This document shows positions 905 to 8,209 of a DNA stretch of 42,290 nt, one piece after another. Origin of the DNA: an uncultured Bacilli bacterium (GTDB lineage Bacteria > Bacillota_I > Bacilli_A > RF39 > UBA660); the NCBI GenBank assembly GCA_947629025.1, contig CANRCC010000014.1:1-42290 (forward strand), in the 5' to 3' direction. The notes under the pieces are model-generated. The model was not told the DNA's origin, did not search any database, and saw only the letters and a program-made list of their open reading frames with translations. The position numbers and the translations under genes are program-made. The stretch's first letter is position 1; each line of letters begins with the position of its first letter.

Positions 905-935
905 TAAAAAAGAATTTATTAATTCATAAATTCTT
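905..935 (-). terminator. Terminator of nrdD-nrdG
   Basis: A perfect 10 bp inverted repeat (AAGAATTTAT / ATAAATTCTT, 910-919 and 926-935) with a 6-base loop overlaps the nrdG stop codon. On the minus strand it is followed by TTTTTAAT. It is AT-only, but position and tail fit an intrinsic terminator. Confidence 0.6.
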
Positions 936-1449
936 CTTTTAATATGACTTTATTAGCTTTTAAACTATTTTTTACATCAATTATTCTTTGATTAGATGAG
1001 CCTCTAAATTTAAGTCTTAGATTCTTCTTTTCTAGTTCAAATTTACCATCTACTATTACATCTATATATTTTAATAATTCCTTTGTAGTATCATTACTTT
1101 TTGACATTTTATCAACTATATCTTTATCAAATAGGTACCCCGAAAAAACCCATATTGTTTTATTTGGAAATTCTTTACGAATTCTCTTTAATAAAGGCAA
1201 TATACCTTCTTGATTGACATATTCAAATGGTTCTCCGCCTAAAACTGTTATTCCTGAAACAAAATCATTTTTTAAATATTCAATTATTTCATCTTCTTCA
1301 TTCTTTGTAAATATATTACCATACTTAAAATCCCATGCATCTTGATTAAAACAACCCTTGCAATGATGTGTACATCCACTTACAAATAATGATATTCTAA
1401 CACCAGGTCCATTTGCTACATCATATTTTTTTATATCTGCATAATGCAT
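919..1449 (-). CDS. nrdG: Anaerobic ribonucleotide reductase activating enzyme
   Basis: Radical-SAM activase that installs the glycyl radical on NrdD. The 4Fe-4S motif CTHHCKGC (Cys-X3-Cys-X2-Cys) is at residues about 26-33, preceded by the NGPGVRISLFVSGC stretch typical of NrdG, and the glycine-rich SAM-binding segment TVLGGEPF follows near residue 69. The length of 176 residues is usual for the family. It starts ten bases after the nrdD stop, so the two are co-transcribed. Together they supply deoxyribonucleotides under anoxia. Confidence 0.97.
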   Translation of the reverse strand: MHYADIKKYDVANGPGVRISLFVSGCTHHCKGCFNQDAWDFKYGNIFTKNEEDEIIEYLKNDFVSGITVLGGEPFEYVNQEGILPLLKRIRKEFPNKTIWVFSGYLFDKDIVDKMSKSNDTTKELLKYIDVIVDGKFELEKKNLRLKFRGSSNQRIIDVKNSLKANKVILKEEFMN

Positions 1450-1459
1450 AACTTTATTC

Positions 1460-3586
1460 CTATAAGTGTGTTACTCTTGCTTTTATTTCTTTTGTTTTTC
1501 CAACATTCCAGAAATTTTCTCCAAGATATCCACAAGTTCTTCTTGTTACATTCATTTTAGAATGATCTTTATTTCCGCAATTTGGGCATTCCCATTCATT
1601 GTTTTCATTGATAATTATCTCACCATCATATCCACATTCATGACAATAATCAGATTTTGTATTAAATTCAGCATATTGGATATTCTCATAAATGAATTTT
1701 ACTAATTCTTTTATAGCATCTAAGTTATTAGTCATATTTGGAATTTCAACATATGATATACATCCACCAGATGATATTGGTTGAAATTGACTTTCAAATT
1801 TTAATTTTGTAAATGCATCAATTTTTTCTCTTACATCAACATGATAAGAATTTGTATAATATCCTTTATCTGTTATATCTTTAATGCTACCAAATTTTTC
1901 TTTATCAATTCTTGCAAATCTATAACATAGACTTTCTGCTGGTGTACCATATAATGCAAATCCAAGTCCTGTTTCTTTCTTCCATTTATCACATGCACTT
2001 CTTAAATAATTCATAAGTTTAAGTGCAAATTTTTCACCAACAGGATCTGTATGAGATACACCTGTAATAAGCTTAGTTGTTTCATAAACACCAATATATC
2101 CTAAAGATAAAGTAGAATATCCCCCTTTTAATAATTTATCTATTTTTTCTCCTTTTTTTAATCTTGCAATTGCGCCATATTGCCAATGTACAGGAGATGT
2201 ATCAGAAATTGTTCCAAGAAGTGAATGATGTCTACACATTAATGCTTCTTTACATATTTCTAGTCTTTCATCAAGTATCTCAAAAAATTTCTTTTCATCA
2301 TTTTGTGCTAATATACCAATTTGAGGTAAGTTTATAGACACTACACCTTGATTAAATCTACCTTCAAATTTATAGTTTCCATTTTCATCCTTCCATGGTG
2401 ATAAGAAACTTCTGCATCCCATTGGACTAAATACATTACCTTCATATATTTCTTTCATCTTTTTTGCAGAAATATAATCTGGATACATTCTCTTAGCTGA
2501 ACACTTACAAGCAAGTTCTGTTAAATAATCATATTTTCCACCTTTGAAAGAATTATGTTCATCAAGTACATAAATTAATTTAGGGAAAGCTGGTGTAACA
2601 TAAACACCTTTTTCATTTTTAATTCCTTCATATCTTTGTTTTAATACTTCTTCTATTATCATTGCATTTTCTTCTATATAAGGATCATCTTTTTCTAGAT
2701 GTAAGAATAATGTTACAAAAGGAGATTGACCATTAGTAGTCATTAAAGTATTAATTTGATACTGAATAGTTTGTACTCCAGCAGATAATTCATCTTTTAA
2801 TCTATCCATTGCAATAGATTCAATTGTTTTCTTATCTAATGTACCTTTATATTTCTTATTTAATTTATCTTTAAACTTATCAAAACTCTTTCTTAAGTAT
2901 TTTCCTAAATGCTTCATATCAACAGATTGTCCACCATATTGGTTACTAGCAACTGCTGCTATTATTTGAGTTGTTACAGTACATGCAACTTGAAATGATT
3001 TTGGACTTTCAATTAATTTACCATTCATAACTGTTCCATTATCTAGCATATCAGAAATATTTATCAAGCAACAATTAAATATTGGTTGAATAAAATAATC
3101 TGCATCATGAAAGTGAATCATACCCTCATTATGTGCTTTTGATATTTTTTCTGGTAAAAGAATTCTATTTGTTAAATCTCTTGATACTTCACCAGCAATA
3201 TAATCTCTTTGTGTTGATGCAAGCATTGTATTTTTATTAGAATTTTCTTCTGCTAATTCTTTATTTTCATTTCTTATTAGTCTAAGTATTGATTCATCTG
3301 TTGTATTTGCTTTTCTTACTAATGCTCTATTATATCTATATACTATGTATTCTTTAGCTAATATGAATTTTTTATATTCCATTAATTTTTTTTCTATTTC
3401 ATCTTGTATATCTTCAACAAGCATTCTTTTCTTTTTTAAATCTTCTATGTATTTAATAATATTATCTATTTGTTTGCTTGTTGCTTTTTCCTTTTTTTCA
3501 ACGTCTTCATTAGCTTTTTCTATTGCTATTCTTATCTTACTTCTATCATAATCAACTATTTTTCCATCTCTTTTAATTACTTTCAT
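1460..3586 (-). CDS. nrdD: Anaerobic ribonucleoside-triphosphate reductase, class III
   Basis: Catalytic subunit reducing ribonucleoside triphosphates with a glycyl radical, formate being the usual reductant. The N-terminal ~95 residues form an ATP-cone (KVIKRDGKIVDYDRSKI...), the allosteric regulatory domain. The C-terminus has a four-cysteine zinc site (CHECGYDG...ECPNCGN) and the glycyl-radical loop RRTCGYLGENFW, with the radical Gly following Cys. The length of 708 residues is normal. It is first in an operon with nrdG and divergent from a Crp/Fnr-family regulator. The shared 130-base intergenic region holds a perfect palindrome that probably controls both directions. Confidence 0.98.
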   Translation of the reverse strand: MKVIKRDGKIVDYDRSKIRIAIEKANEDVEKKEKATSKQIDNIIKYIEDLKKKRMLVEDIQDEIEKKLMEYKKFILAKEYIVYRYNRALVRKANTTDESILRLIRNENKELAEENSNKNTMLASTQRDYIAGEVSRDLTNRILLPEKISKAHNEGMIHFHDADYFIQPIFNCCLINISDMLDNGTVMNGKLIESPKSFQVACTVTTQIIAAVASNQYGGQSVDMKHLGKYLRKSFDKFKDKLNKKYKGTLDKKTIESIAMDRLKDELSAGVQTIQYQINTLMTTNGQSPFVTLFLHLEKDDPYIEENAMIIEEVLKQRYEGIKNEKGVYVTPAFPKLIYVLDEHNSFKGGKYDYLTELACKCSAKRMYPDYISAKKMKEIYEGNVFSPMGCRSFLSPWKDENGNYKFEGRFNQGVVSINLPQIGILAQNDEKKFFEILDERLEICKEALMCRHHSLLGTISDTSPVHWQYGAIARLKKGEKIDKLLKGGYSTLSLGYIGVYETTKLITGVSHTDPVGEKFALKLMNYLRSACDKWKKETGLGFALYGTPAESLCYRFARIDKEKFGSIKDITDKGYYTNSYHVDVREKIDAFTKLKFESQFQPISSGGCISYVEIPNMTNNLDAIKELVKFIYENIQYAEFNTKSDYCHECGYDGEIIINENNEWECPNCGNKDHSKMNVTRRTCGYLGENFWNVGKTKEIKARVTHL

Positions 3587-3614
3587 ACTACTTCTTCTCC
3601 TATTCTATGACAAA

Positions 3615-3620
3615 ATTATA
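3615..3620 (-). promoter_or_regulatory. Extended -10 promoter of nrdDG
   Basis: On the minus strand TGATATAAT is an extended -10 (TGnTATAAT) ahead of nrdD. No good -35 is present, as expected for an activator-dependent or extended -10 promoter. The TTGTTGCA palindrome at 3642-3659 would be centred about 42 bases upstream of the predicted transcription start. Confidence 0.55.
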
Positions 3621-3641
3621 TCAAAAATTTTTTCTTATATA

Positions 3642-3659
3642 TTGTTGCATTTGCAACAA
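3642..3659. promoter_or_regulatory. Perfect palindrome, probable Crp/Fnr-family operator
   Basis: TTGTTGCATTTGCAACAA is an 18 bp perfect inverted repeat (8 bp arms, TT centre) between nrdD and a divergent Crp/Fnr-type gene. It overlaps the -35 of the regulator's own promoter and sits near -42 for nrdDG. Its symmetry and place suggest the binding site of the neighbouring regulator. That it binds this protein is inference. Confidence 0.6.
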
Positions 3660-3673
3660 AAATGAAATATAAT
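3645..3673 (+). promoter_or_regulatory. Promoter of the Crp/Fnr-type regulator
   Basis: TTGCAT (3645-3650), a 17-base spacer and TATAAT (3668-3673) form a near-consensus vegetative promoter. The -35 lies inside the palindrome at 3642-3659, so binding there should repress the promoter (autoregulation). Confidence 0.7.
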
Positions 3674-3712: not shown

Positions 3713-4345
3713 ATGAACGAAATTAGTATATTTTATGGTATAGAAAATAATGATGTAAAAAAAATGTTAAATTGTTTTCAATCAAAAAGAATATCTTATA
3801 AAAAAGATACGACAATCATTTCAAATTTAGCAAATACAAATGTTGTAGGAATAATTTTAAATGGATCTGCTAATCTTATTCGTAATGATTACAATGGAAA
3901 TAGAACTATTATTGAAAAATTAGATGAAGGATCTATTTTTGGTGAAGTATTTTCTTCATATAGTGATGAATTATCTGTAATCGCAACTAGTGATTGTGAA
4001 GTAATAACTTTTGATTATGATCATGTAATAAAAAGATGTAAAAAATCTTGCCCATATCATAATACTTTAATTGATAATATGCTTCAATTACTTGCTAAAA
4101 AAATTGTTATAATGAATAATAGAATTGATGTTCTTACAAAAAAAACAATTAGAGAAAAACTACTTGAATATTTTTCAATTTTAGAAAAAGAAAACCTAGC
4201 AAAAAAATTTGAATTAGATTTAAACTATACTGAACTTGCTGATTACTTTGGTGTTGATAGAAGTGCTCTTATGAGGGAAATAAAAAACCTTAAAGAAGAA
4301 GGTTTTATTGAAGCAAAAGGAAAAAATATAACTTTATTATTCTAA
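3713..4345 (+). CDS. Crp/Fnr-family transcriptional regulator
   Basis: The N-terminal ~120 residues form a cyclic-nucleotide-binding-like beta-barrel (GIILNGSANLIRNDYNGN..., EGSIFGEVFS). A long dimer helix follows, then a C-terminal winged helix-turn-helix (ELADYFGVDRSALMREIKNLKEEGFI, residues about 173-200). Length is 210 residues, normal for the family. An AGGCCT-type ribosome site precedes ATG. Two cysteines lie in KRCKKSCPYH near residues 106-111, but the N-terminal Fnr iron-sulfur cysteine cluster is absent, so the sensed signal is unknown. Divergence from nrdDG with a shared palindrome suggests it controls anaerobic ribonucleotide reduction and itself. Its 3' end overlaps the end of the convergent gene at 4342 by four bases. 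Confidence 0.88.
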   Translation: MNEISIFYGIENNDVKKMLNCFQSKRISYKKDTTIISNLANTNVVGIILNGSANLIRNDYNGNRTIIEKLDEGSIFGEVFSSYSDELSVIATSDCEVITFDYDHVIKRCKKSCPYHNTLIDNMLQLLAKKIVIMNNRIDVLTKKTIREKLLEYFSILEKENLAKKFELDLNYTELADYFGVDRSALMREIKNLKEEGFIEAKGKNITLLF

Positions 4346-4848
4346 TAAATAGCTTTAAATATTAAAGTAAATACTAAGTCAGTTATAAACAAAAATATAA
4401 ATATATAAGTTACCCAATTTGGAATTTTTCTAACTATCTTATCCATCCAAGGTTTTATTAGATATAAAAATATAATTGAGCATATACCCCATAAAAATGC
4501 TATATCTAATGCAATATATTTTCCAAAATGATATTTATGATCAGAATAGTTCCAAAATTCTCTTTTGAATATTAATTCGAGTAAATTACCACCTAAAAAT
4601 TCTATAAATGTTAATATAATGGTTATAATAATAGAAAATATTATTACCTCAATAAATTTATTTAATTTTAATTTTTTAAATAAATAGTTAGAAATTATAA
4701 TTATTAAAACAACGCCCACTCCATAAACAGGAGTCCAATAACCATACAAAAAACCACTTTCTAAATTCCAGTCAAAGAATTTAAATATTATAGTTTCTAT
4801 TAGATGCCCTAATATAGAGAAAATAAAAAAATAATTTAAATAATACAT
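4342..4848 (-). CDS. Integral membrane protein, putative ABC-transporter-type (CmpB-like) family
   Basis: A protein of about 168 residues with five predicted membrane segments (LNYFFIFSILGHLIET; YGVGVVLIIIISNYLF; VIIFSIIITIILTFIEF; ALDIAFLWGICSIIFLYLI; VTYIFIFLFITDLVFTL). The motifs GHLIET, SGFLYGYWTPVYGVG and FLGGNLLE...WNYSDHKYHFGKYI match the widespread Firmicutes family annotated as putative ABC transporter type IV (PF06541-like). The transport role of that family is not established. The ATG three codons inside the frame is chosen because AGGTGG lies just upstream. The protein-level match is from memory of the family. Confidence 0.75.
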   Translation of the reverse strand: MYYLNYFFIFSILGHLIETIIFKFFDWNLESGFLYGYWTPVYGVGVVLIIIISNYLFKKLKLNKFIEVIIFSIIITIILTFIEFLGGNLLELIFKREFWNYSDHKYHFGKYIALDIAFLWGICSIIFLYLIKPWMDKIVRKIPNWVTYIFIFLFITDLVFTLIFKAIY

Positions 4849-4876
4849 ATAAACCACCTGATAGTATTATTTACAA

Positions 4877-7544: not shown

Positions 7545-8209
7545 TTAAGAAATCGTATTATTATTTTCTATTTTATATAAATTATTATAATCTTTACATT
7601 TTGTCATTAAATCATCATGAGTACCAGTACATTTAACTTCATGATTTTTAATAAATATTATATTATCTGCATTTTTAATAGTACTTAATCTATGTGCAAC
7701 TATTATTATTGTATGATCTTGTGATAAATTTTCTATAACTTTTTGAATTTTATTTTGACTTTCATTATCTAAAGATGAAGTACTCTCGTCAAACATTATT
7801 ATATTTGCATTATTTAAAAGTGCCTTGCTATTGCCAATCTTTGTTTTTGTCCTCCTGATATAGTAATTCCATTTTCACCTATTATCGTATCAAATCCATT
7901 AGTTGTTGAACTAATAAAATCATAAATTTCACTTTTTTTACAAACATCTATAAGTTCATTTTCTGTTGCATCTGGTTTTATCAATAAAAGATTTTCTCTA
8001 AACGTCATATTGAATATGTATGGAGATTGCTGTATGTACGCAATATTATTTCTTAGTGTACTTTCATCATAATCATTAATATCCACTTCATCAATAAATA
8101 TTTTATTATCTTCAACTTTATAAAATTTATTAATTAGAGAGAGAATTGTTGTTTTCCCTTCTCCACTTCTTCCAACAATAGCAGTAATCTCATTTTTCTT
8201 TATTTCCAA
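7545..8209 (-). pseudogene. ABC transporter ATPase remnant (truncated and frameshifted)
   Basis: Two abutting frames make one nucleotide-binding domain. The first (8209-7814) has Walker A GRSGEGKTT, a Q-loop (IQQSPYIFN) and the signature ISGGQKQRLAIAR. The second (7796-7545) has Walker B IIMFDES, SSLDNESQ and the H-loop IIVAHRLSTI. A one-base loss after the signature (AG where AGA of the usual ARAL is expected) breaks the frame. The protein begins only a few residues before Walker A, so the start of the domain and the whole membrane domain of what looks like an exporter half-transporter are missing. The truncation lies about 50 bases from the end of the HD gene, at the left edge of the accessory region, and may mark a rearrangement breakpoint. 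Confidence 0.9.

Follow-up and report, generated by a model that had tools for sequence, protein, structure and literature searches.

The window, by which we mean the whole stretch of 42,290 nucleotides analysed here, belongs to the genome of an uncultured Bacilli bacterium that was assembled in 36 contigs (1.12 Mb, 91% complete). The closest named relatives of this genome were 'uncultured Bacilli' MAGs, several of whose record names pointed to the gut of rabbit ('Lapin') and deer. In the window, nrdDG and a gene for a Crp/Fnr-type regulator are divergent, lying head-to-head with the palindrome TTGTTGCATTTGCAACAA between them (3642–3659). The features of the locus are listed below in window coordinates, followed by the evidence on which each was assigned.

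919–1449, minus strand: nrdG, radical-SAM activase of NrdD, 176 aa (ORF and domain/family searches)
1460–3586, minus strand: nrdD, anaerobic (class III) ribonucleoside-triphosphate reductase with ATP-cone, 708 aa (ORF and domain/family searches)
3615–3623, minus strand: TGaTATAAT, extended -10 of the nrdDG promoter, 21 bases beyond the palindrome (sequence, spacing)
3642–3659, no strand: operator palindrome TTGTTGCA-TT-TGCAACAA with perfect 8-base arms (sequence, conservation)
3645–3650, plus strand: TTGCAT, likely -35 hexamer of the regulator promoter, within the palindrome (17-bp spacing)
3668–3673, plus strand: TATAAT, -10 of the regulator promoter, 17 bases from TTGCAT (sequence, spacing)
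3713–4345, plus strand: Crp/Fnr-family regulator, 210 aa, with a cNMP-binding-type sensor fold and HTH_Crp_2 (domains, fold)
3773–3775, plus strand: codon of C21, the first of a Cys-Cys-Cys-His set (alignment)
4037–4060, plus strand: codons of C109-x3-C113-x2-H116, the remainder of the Cys-Cys-Cys-His set (alignment)
4256–4279, plus strand: recognition-helix residues DRSALMRE (alignment of 76 members)

Judged from the spacing, transcription of nrdDG is predicted to start near position 3608. The regulator gene is convergent with a PF06541 membrane protein gene (4342–4857, minus strand), and the two ORFs overlap at 4342–4345. Elsewhere in the window, a short ORF (7814–8209, minus strand) resembled part of an ABC transporter ATPase and presumably stops just past the ABC ATPase signature motif; it is perhaps a broken gene or the result of a frameshift.

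A search of the window for TTGTTGCATTTGCAACAA with up to 3 mismatches returned this site alone (two matches, which are its two strands), compared with an average of 0.13 matches in the shuffled window. This confirmed the original prediction that a single palindrome lies between nrdDG and the Crp/Fnr-type gene. The site at 3642–3659 was also the only exact copy in the window's genome, which contained 32 more when up to 3 mismatches were allowed; as 30 of these lie within ORFs of at least 100 aa (2 lie outside), the site looks private to its promoter pair.

Conservation was assessed over a panel of 193 genomes from the family to which the window's genome belongs. The regulator is encoded in 76 of them; a second regulator in one of these 76 (L140, genome G138) was excluded from the 76 loci. 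The panel genomes are related, incomplete drafts and not independent trials, so single gene absences mean little. The palindrome (up to 3 mismatches) was found upstream of the regulator at 76/76 loci, with a divergent nrdD start no more than 200 bases away at 74 of them. A check for loss of the palindrome where the gene pair is kept thus found it retained at every regulator locus of the family, and the 8 nrdD–regulator pairs examined in other families all had the palindrome or a variant of it. The runner-up 18-mer at the regulator loci had 5–7 mismatches, save at L118 (G074:C16) and L138 (G095:C23), where two operator palindromes, not one, were present between nrdD and the regulator. The core GTTGCANNTGCAAC was exact at 69/76 loci and the 8-base arms were perfect at 30/76, while positions T4, T5, G6, C7, G12, C13, A15 and C16 were invariant. 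The consensus over the 76 loci was TGTTGCAnnTGCAACA, not the TTGATnnnnATCAA of FNR, which bore out the claim that the site is unlike Fnr half-sites.

The 18-mer occurred with no more than 1 mismatch anywhere in the genome in 68/193 genomes, and the exact core was present somewhere in 74 of the 76 regulator-bearing genomes. When 80 of the 117 regulator-less genomes were scanned, the exact core was found in 10, in every case within an ORF of at least 150 aa. The upstream regions of four nrdD genes checked in regulator-less genomes were all without the palindrome (best 5–7 mismatches). A reversed-pattern control gave 0 matches in the 76 regulator-bearing genomes and 1 among the 80 regulator-less genomes; this control is weak because its CpG-like letters are rare in these genomes, and the better control for chance is the ORF placement of all 10 core matches in regulator-less genomes. 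That the palindrome is bound by another protein, or is a hairpin and no protein site, is scarcely credible, given that promoter-placed sites co-occur with the regulator, that 4/4 regulator-less nrdD genes checked do not have it and that promoters unlinked to the regulator carry it at a fixed spacing (see below).

Crp/Fnr proteins activate from sites near -41.5, the Class II activator position. The nrdD-side promoters were compared by taking the best -10 box as the top score within 34 bases of the palindrome, using a simple home-made weight table, and the palindrome centre was computed with TATAAT taken as -12 to -7. The best -10 lay 20 bases beyond the 18-mer at 41 loci, 21 at 27 and 22 at 4 (72/76), which corresponds to palindrome centres of -41.5, -42.5 and -43.5; at the other 4/76 loci it was not at the expected distance. 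With shuffled flanks, the best -10 fell at 20–22 bases in 9.5% of cases (360/3800). In the window the -10 is 21 bases past the palindrome and the centre is at approximately -42.5, in agreement with the distance of about 42 bases from the nrdD start that had been claimed. The best -10 was preceded by TG at 53/76 loci. The hexamer 17 bases before it had 0–2 of 6 matches to TTGACA at 64/72 loci and 3–4 at 8, so most nrdD promoters look weak unaided; allowing a spacing of 16–18 bp, 20/72 had a hexamer with 3–4 matches. The extended -10 that was predicted for nrdD was found in the window as TGaTATAAT, and a good -35 was mostly absent in the family. By its spacing, the regulator site would sit at the Class II activator position of the target promoters.

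On the regulator side, the -10 was at offset 14 in 45 loci, at offset 8 in 19 and elsewhere in 12 (n = 76). The -35 at 17 bp was TTGCAA in 45/45 of the promoters with offset 14, and TTGCAA (12), TTGCAT (6) or TTGCAC (1) in those with offset 8. Because the half-site hardly varies, TTGCAA at 17 bp is obtained almost by construction for offset 14, and what is informative is that offsets 8 and 14 are used, not the letters. One half of the palindrome could act as the regulator's -35 at a 17-bp spacing at 64/76 loci, and the operator appears to hold this -35 in either of two registers. The predicted overlap of the palindrome with the regulator's -35 was likewise seen in the window, where TTGCAT (3645–3650) has 3/6 matches to TTGACA. 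As the -35 is inside the palindrome, binding should shut the regulator promoter. The layout of the two promoters has the look that would be expected of activation on one side and occlusion on the other.

Outside the regulator locus itself, the 76 regulator-bearing genomes contained 29 exact copies of the core. Twenty were promoter-placed, 8 were in ORFs and the remaining one (L180) adjoined a transposase fragment. The sites L178, L179 and L151 were kept as promoter sites, as their flag of being inside an ORF reflected a start-codon extension or an antisense ORF. In 18/20 unlinked promoters the best -10 lay 20 or 21 bases beyond the 18-mer (centre -41.5/-42.5), the exceptions being a pflB in G034 (15 bases) and an nrdG2 in G038 (16 bases, although a weaker box lay at 21). 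The target genes were identified by family searches, and several were cut by the end of their stretch and so scored under full-length cut-offs. They comprised five further nrdD copies, three nrdG2 genes, one of them with another nrdD-type gene after it, five pflB genes, two genes for MFS transporters that were nearest to the L-lactate or oxalate/formate type but under curated cut-offs, two unlike thymidylate synthases from different genomes (L149 and L013) that share the operator and its spacing, and ligA, which encodes the NAD-dependent DNA ligase and had the site in two species from a single genus (L151 and L152, g52). The thymidylate synthase gene of L149 is followed by a DHFR gene, and the thymidylate synthase of the other genome was methanogen-type. 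The target at L148 was also an nrdD, nearest to PRK07111; a class I nrdA was considered for this gene and rejected. The promoter-placed sites suggest that the regulator has further targets in some relatives.

We consider it very probable that the regulator is a Class II activator of nrdDG and a repressor of itself, acting through one palindrome. The regulator (3713–4345) would bind the single palindrome as a dimer, and the dimer, at about -41.5/-42.5, would activate nrdDG as a Class II activator, with RNA polymerase using the extended -10 of nrdDG and the regulator replacing the missing -35. The bound dimer would also cover the -35 of its own divergent promoter, which falls within the palindrome, and would in this way limit its own synthesis. 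Binding, activation and autorepression are our inference; what the sequences show is that the site, the gene pair and the spacing are conserved, that the site and spacing are repeated before other genes, that the site contains a -35-like hexamer, that the promoter site co-occurs with the regulator and that the regulator probably shares its stock with hcp/ferredoxin-linked regulators. It is improbable that the regulator represses nrdDG too, with the palindrome as an ordinary operator between divergent promoters and its release turning nrdDG on. The palindrome is near both promoters, the 20/72 nrdD promoters with 3–4 matches to TTGACA at 16–18 bp fit such an arrangement and Crp/Fnr proteins are able to repress (excerpts of PMC545781); however, repression does not account well for a centre at -41.5 to -43.5 in 72/76 nrdD promoters and at -41.5/-42.5 in 18/20 unlinked promoters, for the poor hexamer at 17 bp (0–2/6 in 64/72) or for the different spacing of the regulator side from the nrdD side.

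The reductase content of the panel bears on the role of such an activator. NrdD-type matches (E ≤ 0.001) were present in 181/193 genomes, and a class I/II reductase large subunit was over cut-off in 1/193, the regulator-bearing G027; the window's genome was among those in which none was found. The family therefore seems to live almost wholly on class III reductase. The original prediction of a simple two-way switch for anaerobic nucleotide reduction stood in part: the geometry of the promoters is consistent with the switch, but it does not decide between an aerobic and an anaerobic reductase, because class I/II enzymes were over cut-off in only that one genome, and the switch would have more targets in some relatives. 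NrdR was over cut-off in 1/193 genomes (G130); the regulator is absent there, and NrdR was rejected as the controller. A further 16 genomes had weak, sub-cut-off NrdR matches, mostly on nrdD ATP-cones, and the NrdR model had no match in the window's genome. Because NrdD appears to be the sole reductase and NrdR is nearly absent, the regulator probably does part of NrdR's job, although it is one solution and not a requirement, as 117/193 family genomes are without it. As a separate observation, a partial NrdR-like match with six stops (L171, G072:C106:15555–15713) shared its contig and strand with an nrdD; this is perhaps a decaying nrdR.

The regulator matched PF00027 and PF13545 over cut-off (cNMP_binding and HTH_Crp_2). 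Its predicted model had a mean pLDDT of 84.8, and a fold search gave 50 listed matches (Z 13.8–16.3) that were all Crp/Fnr-type by title and singled out no subfamily. The HcpR of Porphyromonas gingivalis (9DAY) was the third-best PDB sequence match (E 1.8e-8, over residues 109–209); by fold it ranked 13, with Z 15.2 compared to a best of 16.3, and many Crp/Fnr structures scored alike. In the recognition helix, R183, R188 and E189 were kept in 75, 75 and 74 of the 76 members. Position 180 of CRP has been tied to site base G3 and position 181 to A6 (Rodionov et al. 2005; excerpts of PMC1274295). In our own alignment the equivalents of these positions were R183 (75/76) and S184 (64/76), in keeping with an operator in which G3 is retained and position 6 is G in place of A.

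A class-wide search of 395 genomes gave a match at E ≤ 1e-15 in 127, and 14 of the best loci outside the family were examined. Pairing with nrdD was found at 8 loci in other families (f18, f19 and f21), together with the palindrome or the variants TGTTGTATTTACAACA, TGTTGCAATAGCAACA and, by eye, AAGTCGCACTTGCAACTT. At one f18 locus (L249, G272:C19) the interval separating nrdD from the regulator contained two palindromes of the form TGTTGC..GCAACA. The neighbours of other related regulators were hcp (L245, L246 and L251), genes for 4Fe-4S proteins (L245, L250, L253 and L221) and hemerythrin (L247), and these regulators carried palindromes such as TGTTGAATTTTCAACA. A quick tree of 93 regulators, with L222 left out, was rooted on the branch parting the two kinds; this branch (support 99) placed 8 relatives opposite 85 nrdD-linked regulators, the separation of the hcp-side relatives being the very branch used as root and the tree holding no proven HcpR. 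Six of the 8 are beside an hcp or 4Fe-4S gene, one is beside hemerythrin and one beside recombinase-like genes. As the relatives across the branch are mostly beside hcp/ferredoxin genes, it was probably an HcpR-like lineage that was recruited to nrdD. The second regulator of G138 (L140 / L193, G138:C66) is divergent in sequence (27% identity), groups with the hcp-side relatives and has its own palindrome, CGGTTGTATTTACAACGG; two of its neighbours, which we take to be recombinase-like genes, adjoin it, so it is perhaps on a mobile element.

An alignment of the 76 family members showed that C21, C109, C113 and H116 were all present in 27, all absent in 45 and represented by one residue alone in 4. 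The hcp-side relatives had all four residues in 7/8 cases and three in the eighth, while the 85 nrdD-linked regulators had all four in 29, none in 51, one in 5, and two or three never. The state of the Cys-Cys-Cys-His set changes at least 11 times on the 93-regulator tree; tests for linked loss on independent branches had only 3–5 pairs, which put significance out of reach. From this distribution, the set looks like one cofactor site that was lost as a unit.

Two readings of the signal were weighed. It is quite conceivable, if short of an even chance, that the Cys-Cys-Cys-His set holds a metal or Fe-S centre sensing O2, redox state or NO. Such a centre would be expected from the hcp/ferredoxin-linked relatives, and the full set was found in 7/8 hcp-side and 29/85 nrdD-linked regulators. 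A common switch for NrdD, NrdG and PflB makes sense, as all three are radical enzymes sensitive to oxygen, and pflB and nrdG2 are among the targets. On the other hand, 51/85 nrdD-linked regulators have none of the four residues and the family members among these keep the operator and the spacing, so a metal or Fe-S centre cannot be needed for the core function in these set-less regulators; the linked-loss tests had few pairs, and the P. gingivalis HcpR uses haem with Met68 rather than such a set (excerpts of PMC12750200). It seems rather unlikely that the sensor domain instead reads a DNA-precursor or formate metabolite (a nucleotide, formate or folate) and that the regulator is a stand-in for NrdR, though this would fit a target list with several NrdD subtypes, NrdG2, two unlike thymidylate synthases (one with DHFR) and ligA, the presence of NrdR over cut-off in a single genome, from which the regulator is absent, and the many members without the set. 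The thymidylate synthase sites, however, came from just 2 genomes, as did the ligA sites; pflB and the MFS transporter would equally fit an anaerobic or fermentation regulon, and the window's own genome yielded no second promoter site.

Control of nrdDG by Crp/Fnr-family proteins is already known: Dnr induces P. aeruginosa nrdD via a 14-bp box (excerpts of PMC5645315) and Fnr controls the class III reductase (excerpts of PMC4009431). E. coli Fnr and P. aeruginosa Dnr likewise provide Crp/Fnr-family control of a class III reductase operon, but they control many genes through TTGAT/TTGAC-type boxes in hosts with other reductase classes, whereas the regulator described here is divergently paired with nrdDG, has a different site (TGTTGCAnnTGCAACA) and occurs in the window in a genome where no class I/II reductase was found. 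The N-terminal cysteine cluster of FNR consists of three N-terminal Cys plus one; in contrast, the present family has one recurrent N-terminal Cys column (C21, 28/76 members), and its operator is not that of FNR. A divergent gene arrangement is common to the present regulators and HcpR / HcpR2 (Rodionov 2004, 2005; C. difficile HcpR), although HcpR / HcpR2 control hcp and/or frdX, whereas the partner here was nrdD at 74/76 loci and hcp was found in 0/193 family genomes. The operator is also unlike the published HcpR/HcpR2 motifs GTAACnnnnGTTAC, TTGACnnnnGTCAA and TGTGAnnnnnnTCACA, while C. thermocellum and C. difficile have other HcpR motifs (excerpts of PMC1274295). The P. gingivalis HcpR is reported to bind haem and respond to NO (excerpts of PMC12750200). 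NrdR, like the regulator proposed here, gives dedicated control of ribonucleotide reductase genes; it is a zinc ribbon plus ATP-cone protein that usually has two boxes, and was described as almost universal in bacteria in a 2014 review (excerpts of PMC4009431). The present regulator belongs to another protein family (PF00027 and PF13545) and is a predicted one-palindrome activator. Among the titles and passages covered in the open-licence PMC literature by searches on HcpR with nrdD, on the operator half-sites (the titles of 15 of 2,317 papers) and on Crp/Fnr with class III or anaerobic reductase, there was no report of this regulator; the nrdD passages of HcpR papers concerned a B12 element and an iron response in Prevotella. 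What look new are the dedicated local regulator of probable HcpR-like stock, its operator, the embedded -35 and the setting in a nearly NrdR-less family.

We tentatively suggest, as a history that is possible but on balance doubtful, that in gut Bacilli with small genomes, a large clade that has nearly lost NrdR and all oxygen-tolerant reductases, an HcpR-type stress regulator outlived its hcp gene and came to activate the supply of DNA precursors (nrdDG, nrdG2, thymidylate synthase and DNA ligase, plus a formate branch). Many lineages would then have shed the ancestral four-residue cofactor site as a unit, and would respond to a different signal or to none.

Ribonucleotide reductase must match DNA replication, and here a family of uncultured gut bacteria seems to rely on a class III reductase with hardly any NrdR. 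The candidate circuit is small, comprising one gene, one 18-bp site and two promoters. Its palindrome may double as the regulator's -35, in two registers, so that one element would do two jobs. The joint loss of the likely sensor site would be a natural experiment in which the signal changed and the operator was kept.
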